The translations under genes were made by a program, and so were the position numbers. DNA of 45,615 bases, taken from positions 76,419 to 122,033 of the forward strand of contig JACOXH010000003.1 of assembly GCA_016176415.1 (NCBI GenBank), in the 5' to 3' direction. The notes under the pieces were generated by a model. That model made no database searches and was not told the origin of the DNA. It was given only the letters and a program-made list of their open reading frames with translations. This document shows positions 23,488-45,615 of this stretch, in pieces. This DNA comes from Candidatus Daviesbacteria bacterium. GTDB taxonomy: Bacteria > Patescibacteriota > Microgenomatia > Daviesbacterales > UBA10151. Numbering within the stretch: position 1 is the stretch's first letter; each line of letters begins with the position of its first letter.

Positions 23488-25476
23488 ATGCTGAAACAAG
23501 TTCTTTTTTTATCTCTGCTACTTTGTATTTTTTTGCTGCCTCCTAAAATTTATGCCCAGACCATTAATAACCAATTTATTACCATAGTTAATCCTGTCAG
23601 GATTTCTGCTTATACCAAAGATCCTGCTGAAAGTATCAGTGCTCAATATTTTGAAGTAAAAAGCAGAGGGTTACCTGCCAGCTGGCTTTTTACCTATGAT
23701 GTTTTACAAAACCCTAAGGTTGCAGAAATAGTTAAACAAATGGACTTAAGGCAGGACCTGGGTATTTTTTTGGAAGTCACGCCTGAATTTGCCAAAAACT
23801 CCAAAGTTGTATACAACAAGACTGATTCGTGGCACAGGTCTAATTCAATATTTTTAAGCGGCTATACTCAGGAGGACAGAAAAAAATTAATAGATACTGT
23901 ATTTGAAAAATTTAAATTAAACTTCGGTTATTTTCCAAAATCAGTAGGCGCCTGGTGGGTAGACAGTTTTTCGCTGGAGTATATGAAAACTAAATATGGG
24001 GTTACTGCTACCCTTGGTTGTTCTGATCAGTTCCATACGGATGGGTATTCTTTATGGGGACAATATTGGTCTATACCGTTTTATCCTTCTAAACTTCACG
24101 CGGGCATGCCGGCAAGAAATCTGCAAAACAAATTAGATATTGTTTCATTTCAGTGGGCCTCAAGGGATCCTTTAAATGGTTACAGCGGAGAAAGAGCGAG
24201 CTCGTTTAGCACACAAGATTATTTCACCAGAGGTTTATCTGAAGATTACTTTGAGAAGTTAATAGGACTTTATGCTTTAAAGCATAATAATCAATTTGGA
24301 CAAATAACGTTAGGTTTGGAAGGGGATTTTCCTGCAGAGAATTATAAAAGTTTATATGCTAGTTGGATGAATATTATTGTAAAGTTGAGCAAAGAAAACA
24401 ATATTACCGTATCGAATATGCAGGACTTCAGTTTATGGTACAGAAAAACTTTTCCTGATCTTTCACCTGCTCATCTAATAGAAACAGATGATTTACTGGG
24501 GAGTAGTACAAAAGTCATTTGGTATCAGTCTCCCGCGTACAGGATGGGTCTTATTTACAATAAGGATAATCAGGAGGTAAAAATTATCGACTGGAGAGTT
24601 TATCAGGATAATTTTGAAGAGCCCTTTTATCTTGTTCCCAATACTCAACTTAACTTGTATATAAATACGCCTTCCTTAATTGATACGATAAGTGATCCTG
24701 AAACTATTTGGCAGATTCCTTCTGTTCCTAAGTTTGAGGAGAATAAAATAATCTTTCCTCCTTCAGTTGCGCTTCCACTAAGAATTGAAAGATCCACTCT
24801 TTTAAAAATTAATAAAACTTCTGCGACTACAGAGGTAGAAATAACGGAACACTGGCCATATCCGGAAGATGGTTTGACTTTCCGCTCTCTGCCTCCGGAA
24901 ATTTTTTATTTATTAAATAGTTACAATTTATCCAAATCAAATAATATAAAAAGATTATCAGCTATTTTTGGAGTTTTAATTATTGCTGCTTTAATTGTTT
25001 TTAAGTCGAAACTTTACCGTACAAAACAATTTAAAATAATCAGTATTGGAATATTGTTAACAGGTCTTTTAATAGTTGGTTTAAAATCTCAAATTTATTC
25101 AGTGAGTCAGGCTGAAACTGAAGCGCTTTTGTATTTAAAAAGTCTTGATGACGGTAAAGTGGTGGTTTTTGATGAGACTTGTCTGAAGTGTATCTGGCAT
25201 AATAAATTTATGCCGGCAGCTTTAGCTAATAACCGCGGGTATGTAAGCCAAGTAAGCGGAAAACCAATTATTCACAACCGCTCTATTTTTGTAGCTAAAG
25301 ACAGACCCACAGGGAAAAAGATTTTAGATTCATTAAAGGCAAAATATATCTATATAGTAAAGCATGAAAATTACACTGAAAGTCTGCCTTTTTCCCCGGG
25401 TGATTATAATGTGGAGTTAATTTATGAAAATGCAAATGCACAAATCTGGCGGTTAAAAGATGAAAAAGTTTCCTGA
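23488..25476 (+). CDS. Exported deacetylase-like membrane protein
   Basis: A 662-residue protein with a signal peptide (MLKQVLFLSLLLCIFLLPP, cleavage probably after IYA). The N-terminal half (about 30-330) looks like a NodB/GH57-type polysaccharide-processing barrel (GYFPKSVGAWWVDSFSLEYMKTKYGVTATLGCSDQFHTDGYS), but I cannot place it in a named family. Two TM helices follow (about 487-503 and 515-531), then a C-terminal soluble domain of the kind seen after GT-C enzymes (LDSLKAKYIYIVKHENY...IYENANAQIWRLK). The stop overlaps the start of the next membrane gene (TGATGA). A role in envelope glycan processing is inferred from context. Confidence 0.6.
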   Translation: MLKQVLFLSLLLCIFLLPPKIYAQTINNQFITIVNPVRISAYTKDPAESISAQYFEVKSRGLPASWLFTYDVLQNPKVAEIVKQMDLRQDLGIFLEVTPEFAKNSKVVYNKTDSWHRSNSIFLSGYTQEDRKKLIDTVFEKFKLNFGYFPKSVGAWWVDSFSLEYMKTKYGVTATLGCSDQFHTDGYSLWGQYWSIPFYPSKLHAGMPARNLQNKLDIVSFQWASRDPLNGYSGERASSFSTQDYFTRGLSEDYFEKLIGLYALKHNNQFGQITLGLEGDFPAENYKSLYASWMNIIVKLSKENNITVSNMQDFSLWYRKTFPDLSPAHLIETDDLLGSSTKVIWYQSPAYRMGLIYNKDNQEVKIIDWRVYQDNFEEPFYLVPNTQLNLYINTPSLIDTISDPETIWQIPSVPKFEENKIIFPPSVALPLRIERSTLLKINKTSATTEVEITEHWPYPEDGLTFRSLPPEIFYLLNSYNLSKSNNIKRLSAIFGVLIIAALIVFKSKLYRTKQFKIISIGILLTGLLIVGLKSQIYSVSQAETEALLYLKSLDDGKVVVFDETCLKCIWHNKFMPAALANNRGYVSQVSGKPIIHNRSIFVAKDRPTGKKILDSLKAKYIYIVKHENYTESLPFSPGDYNVELIYENANAQIWRLKDEKVS

Positions 25477-26990
25477 TGAAAAAGATTCACTTGATTTTTG
25501 TAACAATAATCTTCTTTGTTATTATCGGTTATTTTCAAAAGATACAGGCTTTGTCTTTCCCTTTTGTTGATGAACAATATAATTTTGCTATCGGCAAATA
25601 CTTACTAAACAAAGAAATTCTTTATGATGATATTATTACAAACCATCAACCTATAACTCATATTTTCAGCGCCTTAGTTCAGGATATAAGAAAACCAAAT
25701 ACAACTTTTTCCTCAGTTAAAACTCACAGAGAAGCGGTAGTTATCTGGTCAGCAATTTGGGGATTGATTATGGTTATATATTTTGGGTTAGCAGGACTGG
25801 TTTTTGTGATTGTATATGAGCTGACTAAAGGTTATATGCTGGGAAATTTATTTTTGGCAGAAGGGTTTGCAGTTTATCCTTTAATATTTGCGGCAGGAAT
25901 GGCTGTTTATAAAAAAAATCCTGATAAGCTGACACTAATTATCCTAGGGGTCTCTTTAACTTTAGTATTTTTTACATTGGGTCCTGTATGGCCTGCTTTA
26001 GCCTTTTTAATTTTATTACTGGGATTTAATTTAAAGAATTTAAAAGTAAAAATACCACTTATCCTTTTAGGTTTTTTAATAGTTTTTATTTTGGTTGCAA
26101 AATATACCTCAATTACAGGTTATATCAAAGATTATCTTTATCTAAATTCTGTATACACAGTTCCTCAATACCATAGCACCCACTATCAGGAGTCATGGTT
26201 AATGACAATATTAAAATCCTTTGTCTCTCCGCTGATTTCTTTTGTCAGTAAAGATGTAACGGATATCCTTTTGATCGTTAGGTGGTTAACAATACTTTTA
26301 ATAATAAATATGATTTTTTTGGTTAAAAAAGGACAATTTAAAAAAGTACTCATAATTTTTATTTTATTGGGTTTGACTAATATCCGTTTTGTGTCTCCCG
26401 GGATTGGTTCTTACCAGGGGTTCCATATATTGCCATGGTATGCAACTTTAATTTTTCTTTCCATAGTATTAATTACCCAACATCTTAAAAAAAATACAAG
26501 CTATCTTTTAAAAGGTGTAAATTTGGGGATAGTTATTGTTTTGCTTTTTTTAAGTTTTACATACCAAAAAAATTCTTTTTCAAAAAAAGATATTCAGTTG
26601 GAATATACTATCAATTATTCAACACACACTGACATTGGGCAAATTATTGGAATTATGAAATCTAATCAAGATACACTTTTTGTTTCACCGGATGCCTGGT
26701 TGGTTTATTGGCAGAGTGATGCAAATCATCTGCCAAAATTGTATGGTTATTATGCATGGATGAGCGGGATACCGGATTTTCGTAACAGAATTATTGAATC
26801 ATTTGAAAAAGATCCACCAACGTTCTTCTTTTGCGAAGACTGTAAAGGTTTAGATCTTGGTAAATACCTTATAAAATATGACAGAATTAAAAGAAATGGT
26901 GCAGAAACTAATTTGTATGTATTAAGTAAAAAGATTAAAAGCTTAACTGATATTCAAAAGGAGAAGTTAAAATTTTATGGAGTTGACTGA
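25476..26990 (+). CDS. GT-C family membrane glycosyltransferase
   Basis: A 504-residue polytopic protein with about 10-11 hydrophobic helices and a C-terminal soluble domain. The first external loop has FPFVDEQYNFAIGKYLLNKEILYDDIITNHQP, the acidic pattern typical of PMT/ArnT-like transferases that use polyprenyl-phosphate sugars. The acceptor is unknown. It overlaps genes at both ends (1 nt upstream, 14 nt downstream), so it is part of an operon starting at 23488. Confidence 0.72.
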   Translation: MKKIHLIFVTIIFFVIIGYFQKIQALSFPFVDEQYNFAIGKYLLNKEILYDDIITNHQPITHIFSALVQDIRKPNTTFSSVKTHREAVVIWSAIWGLIMVIYFGLAGLVFVIVYELTKGYMLGNLFLAEGFAVYPLIFAAGMAVYKKNPDKLTLIILGVSLTLVFFTLGPVWPALAFLILLLGFNLKNLKVKIPLILLGFLIVFILVAKYTSITGYIKDYLYLNSVYTVPQYHSTHYQESWLMTILKSFVSPLISFVSKDVTDILLIVRWLTILLIINMIFLVKKGQFKKVLIIFILLGLTNIRFVSPGIGSYQGFHILPWYATLIFLSIVLITQHLKKNTSYLLKGVNLGIVIVLLFLSFTYQKNSFSKKDIQLEYTINYSTHTDIGQIIGIMKSNQDTLFVSPDAWLVYWQSDANHLPKLYGYYAWMSGIPDFRNRIIESFEKDPPTFFFCEDCKGLDLGKYLIKYDRIKRNGAETNLYVLSKKIKSLTDIQKEKLKFYGVD

Positions 26991-27815: not shown

Positions 27816-29342
27816 TCAATTTACATATCCGAACATTGAATCTGTGAGGTTGGTATCAGGGGTTTGACAGGATTTTTCTATAATTTCTTTTGAAGGAATT
27901 TTAACAGGCGGGATAACGCCAATGTGACCGAATTTTTGTCTGACTTCTCTCAAAGATAACTCATCAGGAATAACGATATTGTAAACAGGTATGTCTACAG
28001 AAGGATGAACCAAGTGCTGGTTTTTAAGATAAAAGAAATATCTGAAACCCACATTTTCTCCCGGGGTTGTAATGTAACTTATCCCAATGCAAGGATAACC
28101 TTTTTCCTTTGCATCTTTAACAATAAAATCAACTGTTTCTTTTCTGGCAACATAACCCTTGGAGTAATAATATTGATTAATCATGAAGTTAGTGTTTTTA
28201 ATTAACACTATTCCCAAAATAGCAATCACAATTACCTTGCCCAGCTTTGAGTTTTTGAATAGAAAATAAAGAAGAAGTGAGACAATAGTTAAAAATATTA
28301 TTTCAATATTGGCAAAATAATATTCAGAAATAGGAGAAGAAGAAAGCGAGAAAAAGCCAATTACTCCTAAAACCCAAGCATAAAATACAATTACTTCCTT
28401 AAAAGATAAGAGCTTCTTTTTTACTAAAAACAGCGCTGATAAAAGTATTAATAAAATAAAAATAAAGTTTTGAGTTGTCTCAAATGATTGGGGTGAAAAA
28501 AACAGATTATTAATATTTTTGGTTATCATTTCTAAAACCTGCTGAAACTTATAAAGCCCTGTAGCTCCTTCACTTTTTATAAGCGGAGCTTGCAACAACT
28601 TTGTTGTTATAAAAAAGTTTTGGAAGATGCTAATAGTTTGCTGAAAACCGTGTCTTGTTTCAAAAAGGATTAAAGGTATAGAAGTAATAAAAAATGCGGC
28701 TAAAGATGTAATAAGTTGTTTTCTATTTGGTAATTTCTTTGCAACAATCATAGCCACAGGTATAGCAATAAGAGCAGGAAGAAGAGCGATGTGAATATGC
28801 CAAATTAAGGCAATCAACACTCCCAGCAGAGGCAGCACTTTGTAGTTACCCCGGGCTAAACTTACAACACTATAAAAATACCAAACATGCCAAAGCACAG
28901 TAGGGGTAGAAGGGACTACTCTTCTGTCGAGTTGAACAGCATTTAAAAGAATTGCATATAAAAATGAAATTATCAATCCTACTTTAGTATTAAAAAGTTT
29001 AGAAAAAACAAAGTAATAGCTGAAAACTGTCAGTACCCCAATAATTACAGTGGGAATAATTGCTCCGATTGGGTCCATGTTGGTCAGCATCATAAAAGGG
29101 GTAATCAGGTAATACCAAAAGGGGCCAATGAAGATTCCGGGAGCAGTCGTGAGTTGTCCGATCAGGCGGAAATGGCCGTTTACAACAATATCTTTAACTA
29201 TCCAGGAAAATAAATCACCGTCAGCTGCAAAATCAAACCTTTCAATAACTTTGTAAGTTCTGAAAAACAGTCCTGTCAGCAAAATAAATCCTAATATTAA
29301 AAGATGAGGACGTTTACGAAAGTAAGAAAAAATTGAACTCAT
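27816..29342 (-). CDS. GT-C family membrane glycosyltransferase (PMT_2-like)
   Basis: A 508-residue polytopic protein with about 10 helices and a C-terminal extracellular domain. The first loop carries RTYKVIERFDFAADGDLFSWIVKDIVVNG, like the Asp-containing loop of ArnT/PMT_2 transferases. Further features are APGIFIGPFWYYLITPFM and WHIHIALLPAL. The donor is probably a polyprenyl-phosphate sugar. Its 5' end overlaps the promoter of the divergent cofE-like gene; the start codons are about 30 bp apart. Confidence 0.8.
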   Translation of the reverse strand: MSSIFSYFRKRPHLLILGFILLTGLFFRTYKVIERFDFAADGDLFSWIVKDIVVNGHFRLIGQLTTAPGIFIGPFWYYLITPFMMLTNMDPIGAIIPTVIIGVLTVFSYYFVFSKLFNTKVGLIISFLYAILLNAVQLDRRVVPSTPTVLWHVWYFYSVVSLARGNYKVLPLLGVLIALIWHIHIALLPALIAIPVAMIVAKKLPNRKQLITSLAAFFITSIPLILFETRHGFQQTISIFQNFFITTKLLQAPLIKSEGATGLYKFQQVLEMITKNINNLFFSPQSFETTQNFIFILLILLSALFLVKKKLLSFKEVIVFYAWVLGVIGFFSLSSSPISEYYFANIEIIFLTIVSLLLYFLFKNSKLGKVIVIAILGIVLIKNTNFMINQYYYSKGYVARKETVDFIVKDAKEKGYPCIGISYITTPGENVGFRYFFYLKNQHLVHPSVDIPVYNIVIPDELSLREVRQKFGHIGVIPPVKIPSKEIIEKSCQTPDTNLTDSMFGYVN

Positions 29343-38211: not shown

Positions 38212-38937
38212 ATGAAAGGCGTAATTTTAGCAGGAGGTTTGGGGACAAGGCTTTATCCTTTAACCCGTGTGACTAATAAGCATTTATTGCCTGTTTACAA
38301 CAAACCAATGATTTTTTACCCAATTGAAACATTGGTAAAAGCCGGTATTGATGAAATTATGGTGGTAACAGGCGGCCCTCATTGCGGTCACTTTATGTCC
38401 ATTTTAAAAAATGGTCACGAATTAGGGATTAAACATTTAGAATATGCTTATCAGGAAAACGAGGGAGGAATTGCTGATGCGCTGTCACTGGCTAAAGATT
38501 TTGCAGACGGGGATAGTGTCACTGTAATTTTGGGAGATAATACTTCAGATGCTGATATTGTTCAATCTGTAAAAGATTTTACCGAAGGGGCTTTGATTTT
38601 TTTGAAAGAAGTATCAGATCCGGAGCGTTTTGGCATTGCGACTTTCGATCCAAAAGATTCTTCAAAGATAATTAACATTACAGAAAAACCTAAAACTCCG
38701 GATACTAATTGGGCAGTAACAGGTGTTTATATTTACGATAACCAGGTATTTGATTTTATTTCTCAAATAAAACCTTCTGCCAGAGGAGAATTAGAAATAA
38801 CGGATGTTAACAATAAATATGTAGAAAAAGGTCAGTTAGTATGGAGCGAGTTAAAAGGATATTGGTGGGATGCAGGAACTTTTGATACACTCCTTGAAGC
38901 AAACAACTACTGGGCAAAAAAGGCAAACGGATCATGA
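38212..38937 (+). CDS. rmlA: Glucose-1-phosphate thymidylyltransferase
   Basis: A 241-residue nucleotidyltransferase making dTDP-glucose, step one of dTDP-rhamnose synthesis. The signature is ILAGGLGTRLYPLTRVTNKHLLPVYNKPMIFYPIETL, with the metal Asp in VILGDN and the sugar-binding ITEKPKTPDTNWAVTGVYIYD. It is about 50 residues shorter than typical RmlA (about 290), lacking the C-terminal part that carries the allosteric site, so feedback control may differ. It overlaps rmlB by 4 nt. Confidence 0.93.
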   Translation: MKGVILAGGLGTRLYPLTRVTNKHLLPVYNKPMIFYPIETLVKAGIDEIMVVTGGPHCGHFMSILKNGHELGIKHLEYAYQENEGGIADALSLAKDFADGDSVTVILGDNTSDADIVQSVKDFTEGALIFLKEVSDPERFGIATFDPKDSSKIINITEKPKTPDTNWAVTGVYIYDNQVFDFISQIKPSARGELEITDVNNKYVEKGQLVWSELKGYWWDAGTFDTLLEANNYWAKKANGS

Positions 38938-39935
38938 GAGTTTTAGTTACAGGAGGGGCAGGATTCATTGGCTCAAACTTTATCCGCTATTGGTTGCAAA
39001 ATCATCCTGAAGATAAAATTGTAAATTTAGATGCTTTAACTTATGCAGGGCATATTGAAAGCCTAAAAGATGTTGAAGAAAACCCAAGCTATGCATTTAC
39101 CAAAGGAGATATTACTGATCCTGAGGTTGTATCTTCTGCTATGGAGGGAGTAGATATAGTAGTCCATTATGCCGCAGAATCACATGTTGACCGTTCTATT
39201 GTCGACCCTTTGCAGTTTGTTAAAACTAATGTTTTAGGTACGGCAGTTTTACTGAATGCTGCTTTGGAGAAAAAAGTAAAAAGATTTCATCATATTTCCA
39301 CAGACGAAGTTTATGGTGAGTTGGGCCCAAATGATCCCTCATTTACTGAAAATACTTCATACTCTCCCCGCACCCCTTATTCTGCTTCAAAAGCAGGGTC
39401 TGATCATTTAGTGAGGGCTTATTTTGAAACTTACGGTCTGCCTGTAACTATTACAAATTGTGCCAACAACTATGGCCCATATCATGACCCTGAAAAACTA
39501 ATCCCCAGATTTATCACCAATCTTTTGCAGGGACAAAAAGTGCCTTTGATGGGAAAAGGAGAAAATATCAGGGAGTGGCTGCATGTTGAGGATCATGCTT
39601 CTGCCATAGACTTTGTACTGCAAAAGGGGAAAATAGGACAGACTTACTTAATACAGGGTGAGGAAAAAACTAATCTGGAAATTACCAAAATGATCCTGAA
39701 GATTTTAGGCATGGATGAGAACATGATTGAGTTTGTTGGACACAGATTAGGTCACGATTTCCGTTATGCTATCAATGGTGAAAAATTAAAAGAGTTAGGG
39801 TGGGAAAGAAAACATAATTTAGAGGAGGATTTACCAAAAGTAGTTGAGTGGTACAAACAAAATGAGTGGTGGTGGAAGCCTTTGAAGGAAGGCAGGCCGA
39901 ATATTGATAGATCAGCTCAAAAATCTTATGGATGA
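38934..39935 (+). CDS. rmlB: dTDP-glucose 4,6-dehydratase
   Basis: A 333-residue extended SDR enzyme for step two of dTDP-rhamnose synthesis. The NAD site is VTGGAGFIGSNFIRY, the active-site T-D-E is in HHISTDEVYGELG, and Y-x3-K is in TPYSASKAGSDHLVRAY. NCANNYGPYHDPEKLIPRFI and NIREWLHVEDH are specific to RmlB. The overlaps with rmlA and rmlC indicate one operon. Confidence 0.97.
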   Translation: MRVLVTGGAGFIGSNFIRYWLQNHPEDKIVNLDALTYAGHIESLKDVEENPSYAFTKGDITDPEVVSSAMEGVDIVVHYAAESHVDRSIVDPLQFVKTNVLGTAVLLNAALEKKVKRFHHISTDEVYGELGPNDPSFTENTSYSPRTPYSASKAGSDHLVRAYFETYGLPVTITNCANNYGPYHDPEKLIPRFITNLLQGQKVPLMGKGENIREWLHVEDHASAIDFVLQKGKIGQTYLIQGEEKTNLEITKMILKILGMDENMIEFVGHRLGHDFRYAINGEKLKELGWERKHNLEEDLPKVVEWYKQNEWWWKPLKEGRPNIDRSAQKSYG

Positions 39936-40476
39936 ATATATAAAAACAACTTCAATAAAAGGCCTTTATAAAATAGAACGAATGACTCGCTCTGATGACA
40001 GAGGTTTTTTCAGGGAAGTTTTCCATATGGATGAACTTGAAAAAATGTTGGGATTTGAATTTAAACCTGTCCAAATGAATCATTCTTTTTCCAAACCAAA
40101 AGTGATCAGGGCTTTGCATGCAGAGAATTGGAATAAGTTAGTTTATCCTGTAACAGGGATTTGTTTTGCAGCTATTGTAGATATTAGGCCTGATTCCCAA
40201 ACTTTTGGTAAAGTGGAAACATTTACTTTTTCAGATGATGACAGATTTGCCCTTTTTATTCCAAAAGGATTGGCCAATTCTATTTGCGTAGCAGGGGAAC
40301 AAAGTGTGAACTATATGTATCTGGTAGATTCCTATTATGATGGTTCAGACACCAGAGCAATAGCCTGGGATGATTCTGATTTGGGGATTGAGTGGCCTGT
40401 CAAAGATCCCATTATTTCAGAGCGGGATAAGAATAATCCCAAGTTACGTGAGATGTTTCCGGAGAAGTTTAGATGA
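39928..40476 (+). CDS. rmlC: dTDP-4-dehydrorhamnose 3,5-epimerase
   Basis: A 182-residue cupin epimerase, step three of dTDP-rhamnose synthesis. Signatures: DDRGFFREVFH, VQMNHSFSKPKVIRALHAEN (with the catalytic His), a core strand around IVDIRPDSQTFGK, and FIPKGLANSICV. I start at ATG 39928, 8 nt inside rmlB; a TTG at 39904 would add eight residues without family support. Confidence 0.95.
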   Translation: MDEYIKTTSIKGLYKIERMTRSDDRGFFREVFHMDELEKMLGFEFKPVQMNHSFSKPKVIRALHAENWNKLVYPVTGICFAAIVDIRPDSQTFGKVETFTFSDDDRFALFIPKGLANSICVAGEQSVNYMYLVDSYYDGSDTRAIAWDDSDLGIEWPVKDPIISERDKNNPKLREMFPEKFR

Positions 40477-41369
40477 AGGTTTTAATCTTTGGCGGTAGTG
40501 GTTTAGTAGGATCAAAGTTTATTGACCTCTATAGAGATAGTTTTGAAATTGAATCTCCTGATGCAACTGAAGTAGATATTTTAAACAAAGACGCGGTGGA
40601 AAAAGCAGTTGAGGAATTTGCTCCTGATACAGTGATTAATTTTGCAGCATATACGCAAGTTGAAGAAGCAGAAAATCAAAAAGATGACAAAGAGGGGATT
40701 TGTTACCAAATCAATGCCATTGGGGCCAAAAATGTAGCTGAAGCTTGCAGCAGTTTAAAGAAAAAACTGGTTCATATCTCCACAGATTATGTTTTTGATG
40801 GTTCAAAAGACACCAGTCCTTATACAGAAGAAGATAAACCCAATCCCATTAATTGGTACGGGAAAACTAAATATTTTGCAGAACAGTTAGCTTTGGAAAG
40901 CGGTTGCCCTTTGCTGATAGCGAGGATTTGTATGCCGTTTTCTCCAAATTATGAACTTAAAAAAGATATTGCCAGATTCTTCCTGGAGCAATTAAGGGCT
41001 AAAAAAGAAATAAAAGCAGTAGAGGACCAAAAGATCACACCAACTTTAGTTTCTGATATTGCAGCAGGGTTGAAAACTTTAATAGATGCAGACAAAGAAG
41101 GTTTATATCATGTTTCCAGTACAGACAGTATGACCCCTTTGGAGTTTGCCAAAACTATTGCTGAACTGTTTGGATTGGAGTATTCACTTATTGGTGGAGT
41201 GAGTTTGGATGAATATAATAAAAATAAAAAAGCCAAAATGTTAAAGTATTCCTGGTTAAATCCTGCTAAATTTGAGGAGGAGTTTGGAGAAGGAATTTTG
41301 CATACAATTGAAGAAGGACTAGTTTCTTTCAAAGAAGAGATTGACGCAAAGGCTAATAATCCGATATAG
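40473..41369 (+). CDS. rmlD: dTDP-4-dehydrorhamnose reductase
   Basis: A 298-residue SDR enzyme that completes dTDP-L-rhamnose. The cofactor site is IFGGSGLVGSKFIDLY, with VINFAAYTQVEEAE, HISTDYVFDGS and Y-x3-K in NWYGKTKYFAEQLAL. ISTDYVFDG and the PLEFAKTIAELFGL tail are typical. It overlaps rmlC by 4 nt. The closing DNA contains the -35 of the gmd promoter. Confidence 0.95.
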   Translation: MKVLIFGGSGLVGSKFIDLYRDSFEIESPDATEVDILNKDAVEKAVEEFAPDTVINFAAYTQVEEAENQKDDKEGICYQINAIGAKNVAEACSSLKKKLVHISTDYVFDGSKDTSPYTEEDKPNPINWYGKTKYFAEQLALESGCPLLIARICMPFSPNYELKKDIARFFLEQLRAKKEIKAVEDQKITPTLVSDIAAGLKTLIDADKEGLYHVSSTDSMTPLEFAKTIAELFGLEYSLIGGVSLDEYNKNKKAKMLKYSWLNPAKFEEEFGEGILHTIEEGLVSFKEEIDAKANNPI

Positions 41370-41370
41370 T
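41341..41370 (+). promoter_or_regulatory. Promoter for gmd, leaderless layout
   Basis: TTGACG (41341-41346), an 18-bp spacer and TATAGT (41365-41370). The -10 ends 7 nt before the ATG at 41378. The promoter overlaps the end of rmlD. Confidence 0.6.
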
Positions 41371-41377
41371 TACATAT

Positions 41378-42388
41378 ATGGTAAAAAGAGCTTTAATTAC
41401 AGGCATTTCCGGGCAGGATGGTTCGTATCTGTCAGAACTGCTTTTGGACAAAGGCTATGAAGTGGCCGGGTTTGTCCGGAGGAATGCAACTTTGGATTTG
41501 GGTAATGCCAACGATATTAAAGAAGAGGTGAAAATCTATTATGGCGACTTGCACTCTCCGGAGACTATAGCTTTGGCGCTACTGGATTTTAAACCTGATG
41601 AAATTTATAATCTGGCAGCTTTATCTTCTCCCTTTGCTTCTTTTAGAGACAAAGTTGGGACAATTGTGGTAACCGGTATTGGAGCTCTTCAGGTTTTCGA
41701 AAGAGCAAAGCAAATAGTGCCTGACACCAGAATTTATCAGGCTTCTACCTCTGAAATGTTTGGAGCGCCAAAGCAGATGCCTCAAAATGAAGATACCCCT
41801 CTTGCTCCGGCCAACCCTTATGCTGCAGCCAAGGAGCTTGCCCACAGAATGGCAGTAATGGCCAGACATGATAAAAATCAACCTCAATTTATTTCCTGCG
41901 GGATTTTATTTAACCATGAAAGCCCCAGGAGAGGGTTAAATTTTGTCACCAGAAAAATCAGCGCGGCAGTAGCTTGTATCAAAAATGGAAAGAAATTTGA
42001 TGTGCCTTTAAATGAATTGGGTGAGCCAATTGTAAAGGATGGAAAAATAAAACTGGGAGATCTAAATGCTAAAAGGGACTGGGGTTACGCTCCTGATTAT
42101 GTAGAGGCTATGTGGATGATGCTTCAGCACGAAAAGGCTGATGATTTTGTAGTTGCTACAGGAGAACTTCATACTGTAGGGGAATTTGCTAAAGAGGCTT
42201 TCGCAGTTGTAGGTTTAAACTGGGAAGATTATGTAGAAACTGATCCAAGTTTTGTTCCTCCGGTCCAAACAGGTCCTCTTTGCGGGGATGCTTCAAAAGT
42301 AAAAAAGATTTTAGGCTGGGAGCCTAAAACTAAATTTAAGGACTTAGTAAAAATTATGGTCCACGCCGATCTTGCCAAATTCTCCTGA
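41378..42388 (+). CDS. gmd: GDP-mannose 4,6-dehydratase
   Basis: A 336-residue extended SDR enzyme making GDP-4-keto-6-deoxymannose, precursor of GDP-fucose, rhamnose or perosamine. The cofactor site is ITGISGQDGSYLSELLLDKGYEV, the T-S-E triad residues are in YQASTSEMFG, Y-x3-K is in NPYAAAKELAH, and FNHESPRRGLNFVTRKI is diagnostic. The usual NLAAQSHV reads NLAALSSP, a small departure near the active site. No reductase for the next step is visible in the window. Confidence 0.92.
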   Translation: MVKRALITGISGQDGSYLSELLLDKGYEVAGFVRRNATLDLGNANDIKEEVKIYYGDLHSPETIALALLDFKPDEIYNLAALSSPFASFRDKVGTIVVTGIGALQVFERAKQIVPDTRIYQASTSEMFGAPKQMPQNEDTPLAPANPYAAAKELAHRMAVMARHDKNQPQFISCGILFNHESPRRGLNFVTRKISAAVACIKNGKKFDVPLNELGEPIVKDGKIKLGDLNAKRDWGYAPDYVEAMWMMLQHEKADDFVVATGELHTVGEFAKEAFAVVGLNWEDYVETDPSFVPPVQTGPLCGDASKVKKILGWEPKTKFKDLVKIMVHADLAKFS

Positions 42389-44779: not shown

Positions 44780-45615
44780 ATGAAAACTACTGGTCTTTCG
44801 GTCTTCTTCCCCTGTATTAACGAAGAGGGTAATGTAGAAACTACAGTTAAGAGGGCAGTTGAAGTTTTAGAAAAATTAAAACTGAAATATGAAATTATCG
44901 TTGTAAACGATGGCTCTTCTGATAAAACAAGTGAAGTTGCTCACAGGTTGTCTCATAAAAATCCTAACGTCAGAGTGATAGATCATCCTAAAAATTTAGG
45001 ATATGGTGAGGCTTTAAAATCAGGCTTTTACAATGCCCGTTTTGATACCATTGTTTACACGGACGGAGACGGACAGTTTGATTTTTCAGAAGTTACAAAA
45101 TTCCTTGAGAGTATTAAAGAAAATGATGTAGTGATAGGTTACAGAATAAAGAGGCAGGATTCTTTTATCAGACGGTTATTTGGAAAAGGATGGAAACTCA
45201 CGCTTTTAACTTTTTTCAGAGTAACTTTAAAAGATGTGGATTGCGGTTTTAAGATGGTTAAAAGAGAAGTGCTGGAAAAGATTCCTCATCTTGAATCATC
45301 AAGAGGAGCAATGATTAATGCAGAGTTAGTAATTAAGGGAAAGAAAGCAGGTTTTAAAATAGGACAGGTGGGGGTTACTCATTATCCGCGCATTTCAGGA
45401 AAACCCACAGGAGCAAACATAAAAGTTATTATTAAATCTTATCTTGATTTAATCAGGCTTTGGTGGAAGCTTAAAACAAATAAAGCTTTGTTTTTGGCTA
45501 TTTTGGCAGTATTACTTCTTGCAACCATTCTTCGTTTTTACAAAATTTCTCAATATATGACCTTTTTAGGTGATGAAGGTAGGGACGCTTTAGTGATAAA
45601 AGATTTACTGGTAAA
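44780..45615 (+). CDS. GT2 glycosyltransferase fused to GT-C domain, 3' end outside window
   Basis: The frame is open from ATG 44780 to the window edge (278 codons). The GT2 domain (about 1-230) has VFFPCINEEGNVETTVKRAV, VVNDGSSDKT, YTDGDGQFDFSEV and DCGFKMVKREVL, as in dolichol/polyprenyl-phosphate sugar synthases. It continues without a stop into a TM helix (about 235-250) and then RFYKISQYMTFLGDEGRDALVIKDLL, the start of an ArnT/PMT-type GT-C enzyme with its Asp/Glu loop. One polypeptide would thus make a lipid-linked sugar and use it. The rest of the GT-C part lies beyond 45615. Confidence 0.85.
   Translation, partial: MKTTGLSVFFPCINEEGNVETTVKRAVEVLEKLKLKYEIIVVNDGSSDKTSEVAHRLSHKNPNVRVIDHPKNLGYGEALKSGFYNARFDTIVYTDGDGQFDFSEVTKFLESIKENDVVIGYRIKRQDSFIRRLFGKGWKLTLLTFFRVTLKDVDCGFKMVKREVLEKIPHLESSRGAMINAELVIKGKKAGFKIGQVGVTHYPRISGKPTGANIKVIIKSYLDLIRLWWKLKTNKALFLAILAVLLLATILRFYKISQYMTFLGDEGRDALVIKDLLV

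Follow-up and report, generated by a model that had tools for sequence, protein, structure and literature searches.

The window analysed here is a stretch of 45,615 nucleotides whose last base is also the end of its contig (position 122033). It closes inside a gene that begins as a family GT2 glycosyltransferase and continues into the first part of a GT-C membrane domain. This arrangement raises the question of whether the gene joins an enzyme that makes a lipid-linked sugar to the enzyme that spends it, and of how the sugar would pass from one to the other. In our judgement the locus probably encodes a three-component glycosylation system carried on two proteins, in which the synthase (GT2) is covalently joined to the GT-C user of its lipid-linked sugar.

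The junction and its two domains

The open reading frame starts with ATG and remains open at its 3′ end, and the missing part of the gene lies beyond the contig (Table 1). A search for its continuation elsewhere in the assembly (17 contigs, 84% complete) found none. GT2 occupies the first ~210 residues of the protein and contains the sequence DGDGQ, which by role we take to be the metal and nucleotide-sugar motif. A basic stretch, LWWKLKTNK, then precedes a hydrophobic helix with no stop between them, and the helix is followed by the loop GDEGRDALVIKDLLV. Residues ~236–278, comprising the helix and the GDEGRD loop, are 68% identical over 44 residues to the GT-C domain of a full-length relative. 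Asp265 of this loop, a candidate catalytic Asp by analogy with ArnT, PglB and Pmt, is conserved even in some GT-C sequences that are just 18–24% identical to the first. The window therefore contains the GT2-to-GT-C junction, and GT-C past its first external loop lies outside it.

Table 1. Positions in the window of the fusion gene, its parts and the neighbouring genes.
Feature	Coordinates	Strand	Remarks
Nucleotide-sugar genes upstream	38212..42388	+	NTP_transferase, dehydratase, dTDP_sugar_isom, RmlD, GDP_Man_Dehyd family member
GT2-GtrA fusion, 394 aa	42407..43591	+	PF00535 + PF04138; GtrA domain residues 261-389
Separate GT-C-like membrane protein, 381 aa	43588..44733	-	PMT_2 below curated cut-off
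GT2::GT-C fusion gene, 3′ end cut	44780..45613	+	278 of expected ~710-745 aa
GT2 catalytic domain, PF00535, residues 7-168	44798..45283	+	Pfam Glycos_transf_2, 6e-28
DGDGQ	45062..45076	+	Aligned with DADLQ of DPMS/GtrB
Helix and basic linker between domains, residues ~212-235	45413..45484	+	Model of relative L039: helix 214-231
First transmembrane helix (TM1) of GT-C, residues ~236-254	45485..45541	+	Helix 235-253 in L039 model
Asp265 of GDEGRD, first external loop	45572..45574	+	Invariant in 29 aligned GT-C domains

Structural comparisons were made with a model of the relative L039 (724 aa), which shares 74% identity with the window protein across 278 aa; the model has a mean pLDDT of 93.7 and a pTM of 0.88. 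Its GT2 part matches dolichyl-phosphate mannose synthase (DPMS; 9ep0; Z 26.0, 1.9 Å, 212 residues) and ArnC (9bhe; Z 26.6, 2.1 Å, 222 residues), and the window protein itself was aligned to DPMS (5mlz; 5.7e-17) and also to GtrB and ArnC. Judged by its closest solved relatives in sequence and in predicted fold, the GT2 part is DPMS/ArnC/GtrB-like. It has no hydrophobic 19-mer above 0.83, and the first transmembrane helix of the protein is that of GT-C. Because the GT2 is without C-terminal transmembrane helices of its own, we do not file it as the GtrB/ArnC type; the Dpm1 type likewise is without its own transmembrane helices, according to the accessible part of one report (PMC4973528).

The GT-C part of the L039 model matches Pmt4 (9i5l; Z 27.3, 3.6 Å, 349 residues), STT3 (6s7o; Z 26.2, 4.6 Å, 428 residues) and ArnT (5f15; Z 26.1, 4.4 Å, 426 residues), and it can be assigned to no single one of these families because rows within 1 Z are ties. 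The Pfam family PMT_2 scores above its curated cut-off (26.1 bits) in the fused relatives L039 (50.1), L034 (41.9) and L044 (42.7), a test made on relatives because the window copy is too short. NCBIfam gave no family above cut-off, with an Agl23-like profile appearing only below threshold. The first-pass annotation had described a DPM1/ArnC-like GT2 running directly into a PMT/ArnT-like GT-C. Both identities agree with these matches, the GT2 with polyprenyl-phosphate sugar synthases and the GT-C by way of the L039 model, and the direct join is borne out by a single frame without a stop in the window and by full-length relatives.

Fused and split forms among relatives

A GT2 like that of the window protein (P0001-like) is present in 54 of the 56 genomes searched, and in 14 of those 54 one open frame of 708–747 aa runs through both domains. 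The search of named genomes gave 80 loci, including full fusions of 708–743 aa (L032–L046, with 11 of the 15 under the name Candidatus Daviesbacteria) and one fusion cut at its 5′ end (L047). Across the class, a GT2 match at E ≤ 1e-60 was found in 156 of 373 genomes, and at least 23 full open fusions occur under three family codes (f1, f12 and f39). Full-length relatives have no stop at the position corresponding to just beyond 45615. The hosts of the fusion are tiny groundwater bacteria; none of the 257 matching records in a plasmid collection spans both domains.

The search for the architecture across genomes, which the first-pass annotation had put forward as a check, yielded 63 non-redundant pairs of GT2 and GT-C, made up of 24 relatives with the fusion (23 full length, and L047 cut) and 39 pairs of adjacent genes. 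These split pairs lie on one strand with junctions of -49 to +36 nt, most commonly -19 (14 cases) or -4 (6 cases). Six of them (L017, L053, L127, L128, L129 and L130) share one frame, with only a stop and 0–36 nt between the two genes, and are one step from fusion or fission. We make no claim that split GT2s are without a membrane helix, their highest 19-mer hydrophobicity ranging from 0.75 to 2.08.

When all 90 non-redundant loci of the group are counted, 24 have the GT2 fused to GT-C, 39 have it directly followed by GT-C, and 19 others have it directly followed by a Wzx-like protein, which is a flippase type. The Wzx-like call was checked by profile for L061 (PF13440, 1.3e-48) and made by similarity to L061 for the other loci. 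In Levybacteria-type genomes (L058, L061, L064, L074–L076 and others), a GT2 of the same family is followed by the Wzx-like polysaccharide flippase, with no GT-C.

On trees of concatenated sequences, built with FastTree and with IQ-TREE, the fused or split label changes five times, compared with four changes on the GT2 tree and six on the GT-C tree; the sets were chosen non-randomly from search listings, and groups were named after the first tree was inspected. A single origin of all fusions was rejected by the AU test (24 fused versus 39 split rows, p-AU 6.45e-78), and so was one clade uniting the 19 fused rows that come from the family of the window (p-AU 0.000847). The fused state is recurrent, with at least five state changes. 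We claim recurrence and not direction, because counting labels does not distinguish a fusion event from a fission event. Among 15 fused relatives, the median pN/pS is ~0.21 for the GT2 core, 0.26 for the linker, 0.25 for TM1 plus loop, ~0.40 for the rest of GT-C and 0.21 for the C-terminal domain, values that are ratios of medians and rough, with pS near saturation. The fusion gene is under selection over its whole length, linker included.

Neighbouring genes and a proposed route for the sugar

The second fusion of the locus, GT2-GtrA, ends 1,188 bases before the GT2::GT-C gene and carries the sole GtrA domain detected in the window's genome assembly. Between the two fusions, on the opposite strand, lies the separate GT-C-like membrane protein; 21 of the 22 named loci compared have a homologue, and this conserved place suggests that it is part of the system as well. 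The locus encodes a synthase, a GtrA-type flippase domain and a GT-C together. Among the upstream genes, we take the NTP_transferase to be RmlA-like, the dehydratase RmlB-like and the dTDP_sugar_isom RmlC. As read from sequence, these genes point to sugars of the dTDP-rhamnose and GDP-mannose-dehydratase types, and the specificity of the GT2 is not readable in this way. Most named loci that reach far enough have a common order around the fusion: RmlC, RmlD, GDP_Man_Dehyd, GT2-GtrA, the reverse GT-C, the fusion, a second GT2 and often a second GT-C.

The last two of these genes would lie beyond the window end. In relatives the fusion is followed by a second GT2 (~245 aa), often then by a PMT_2 GT-C (~507 aa), as at L032:7142-7876 and L034:7193-9525, an unfused pair of the same kind beside the fused one. 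Elsewhere in the window there are a further PMT_2 GT-C of 508 aa, barely over the cut-off (27816-29342, - strand), and two + strand proteins of 662 and 504 aa (23488-25476 and 25476-26990) with no Pfam match at E ≤ 0.001.

Of the 41 genomes of the class for which both positions are listed, 39 have GtrA no more than 5 kb from the GT2/GT-C module (22 of 23 fused genomes and 17 of 18 split-GT-C genomes), and in both exceptions the two are on different contigs. The same proximity was found in neither of two genomes with a Wzx-like partner, in neither of two with another neighbour, and in 6 of 18 with a P0001-like GT2 not assigned to any of these classes. Exactly one GtrA domain occurs in 18 of the 19 fused genomes tested, with two in G191. 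One GtrA per genome was dropped as a special link, being the class norm (121 of 137 genomes). The link of GtrA to the module is shown by position, not by number. The first-pass annotation was correct that a GT2-GtrA fusion lies close by and that two fusions occur together, and their proximity is conserved. Its further statement that they serve the same pathway does not stand as more than a reading of gene order, and different sugars are possible because each fusion has its own GT2.

In pathways of this kind the GT2 acts on the cytoplasmic side of the membrane and the GT-C on the outside, and the stretch rich in Lys and Arg that precedes TM1 is consistent with a cytoplasmic GT2. Known systems likewise have the synthase inside, the GT-C outside and a flippase between, in the available portions of two reports (PMC11127046, PMC7389260). 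The fusion alone cannot pass the sugar on unless it also flips it. For this reason the first-pass proposal that the sugar is channelled from synthesis to transfer lacks support as worded: with active sites expected on opposite faces, a flippase is required. We propose instead that the GT2, to judge from its fold and motif, would load polyprenyl phosphate with a sugar taken from a nucleotide sugar, on the inner side of the membrane. A flippase would then turn the lipid-sugar over, for which the conserved position of the neighbouring GT2-GtrA makes its GtrA domain the best candidate. Finally, the fold and invariant Asp of GT-C suggest that this domain would hand the sugar to a surface acceptor. 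The fusion would anchor the synthase to the membrane next to the enzyme that uses its product, in a 1:1 ratio. The locus looks like a fusion of components 1 (synthase) and 3 (GT-C) beside a fusion of components 1 and 2 (GT2-GtrA). As a counterpoint, the second GT2 and GT-C found downstream in relatives could share or divert the donor.

The partners of the GT2 also bear on a different reading, which we regard as unlikely, in which the fused GT2 builds chains like many glycosyltransferases, adding a sugar to a lipid-linked glycan inside the cell, the GT-C is polymerase- or ligase-like and acts on a polyprenyl-diphosphate glycan, and the fusion couples assembly to transfer instead of producing a monophosphate donor. 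Related GT2s elsewhere precede a Wzx-like protein, as is typical of diphosphate-linked repeat units, and the GT-C part is structurally close to STT3, which is an oligosaccharyl transferase. However, the monophosphate-sugar users ArnT and Pmt4 match it no worse than STT3 does, the solved GT2s nearest in both sequence and fold are polyprenyl-monophosphate sugar synthases, and a GtrA domain adjoins the module. It is somewhat more doubtful still that the fusion chiefly serves as a membrane anchor and to set stoichiometry, with domains that act on different sugars and share no lipid intermediate. Repeated fusion and overlap show linkage rather than a shared substrate, and the fused membrane domain of Mt-ppm1 is described as dispensable for DPM synthase activity in the accessible text of PMC3485146. 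Yet the pairing of GT2 and GT-C is kept across many families, whether split or fused.

Two further possibilities appear very improbable. The fusion might be self-sufficient, its own GT-C helices flipping the donor such that one polypeptide makes, flips and spends it, and the adjoining GtrA would then serve a different sugar. We give slightly less credence again to the idea that the gene in the window's genome is broken or split just past the contig end, with no fusion protein made there. The contig does end within the gene, and split forms with an in-frame junction stop exist in other genera (L017, L053 and L127–L129, for example). Against this, the usual end of the GT2 in split forms (~232–247 aa) has been passed with 278 aa open and with TM1 and its loop in frame, and of the 11 other genomes examined from the same genus, 8 carry the full fusion.

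If a synthase joined to the user of its product is indeed what the fusion represents, it names the synthase-to-GT-C pairing for a lineage without genetics. Pairing in three-component systems is usually guessed from gene order, and here it has been tied several times by evolution. The same GT2 family has a GT-C partner in some lineages and a Wzx-like partner in others, with GtrA near when the partner is GT-C; therefore, two or three proteins would suffice for a direct test of what flips the polyprenyl-phosphate sugar.

Comparison with known systems

In the open-licence literature we recognised no description of a GT2::GT-C fusion, which is weak evidence of absence as most subscription papers fall outside that scope. 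The theme is wider than the window family. An unrelated GT2::PMT fusion of 1033 aa is found in another family of the phylum (L167:332-3430, - strand), and other Patescibacteria have an independent GT2::PTPS_related fusion of 816 aa whose match is just below cut-off (L169:1543-3990, + strand). A protein of 1531 aa combines two GT2-type domains in frame with a GT1/GT4-type domain at its C terminus (L170:3346-7938, + strand).

The precedents for a GT2, a flippase and a GT-C acting together are the three-component systems (PMC7389260, PMC11127046, as far as their accessible text extends). The domain types of GtrA/GtrB/Gtr*, CsbB/GtcA/YfhO and Citrobacter GT136 are the same as those that lie side by side at this locus. 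Their components are separate proteins in the accessible parts of the reports (PMC11127046, PMC7389260, PMC5836110), whereas here a single polypeptide holds both synthase and GT-C, and a different GT2 carries the flippase domain.

With DPMS, ArnC and GtrB the window-family fusion has in common the GT2 fold, the DxD-type motif and the helix that follows. The solved members, of the GtrB/ArnC and PfDPMS types, carry C-terminal transmembrane helices of their own, whereas the membrane part of the fusion is supplied by the GT-C domain. Residues ~232–718 resemble ArnT, Pmt4 and STT3 in fold, in the acidic first-loop motif and in the small C-terminal domain, but identity is 10–16% and the GT-C of the fusion is preceded by a GT2 domain.

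Mycobacterial Ppm1 (D1-D2) differs in its fused partner, which is another kind of membrane domain (Lnt-like) and not the enzyme that spends the product. Its DPM synthase and membrane domain are fused or encoded by adjacent genes depending on the species, M. tuberculosis having a single protein and M. smegmatis two genes, according to the available portion of the report (PMC3485146). Mycobacterial ppm1 is the closest precedent for the alternation between fused and split forms.
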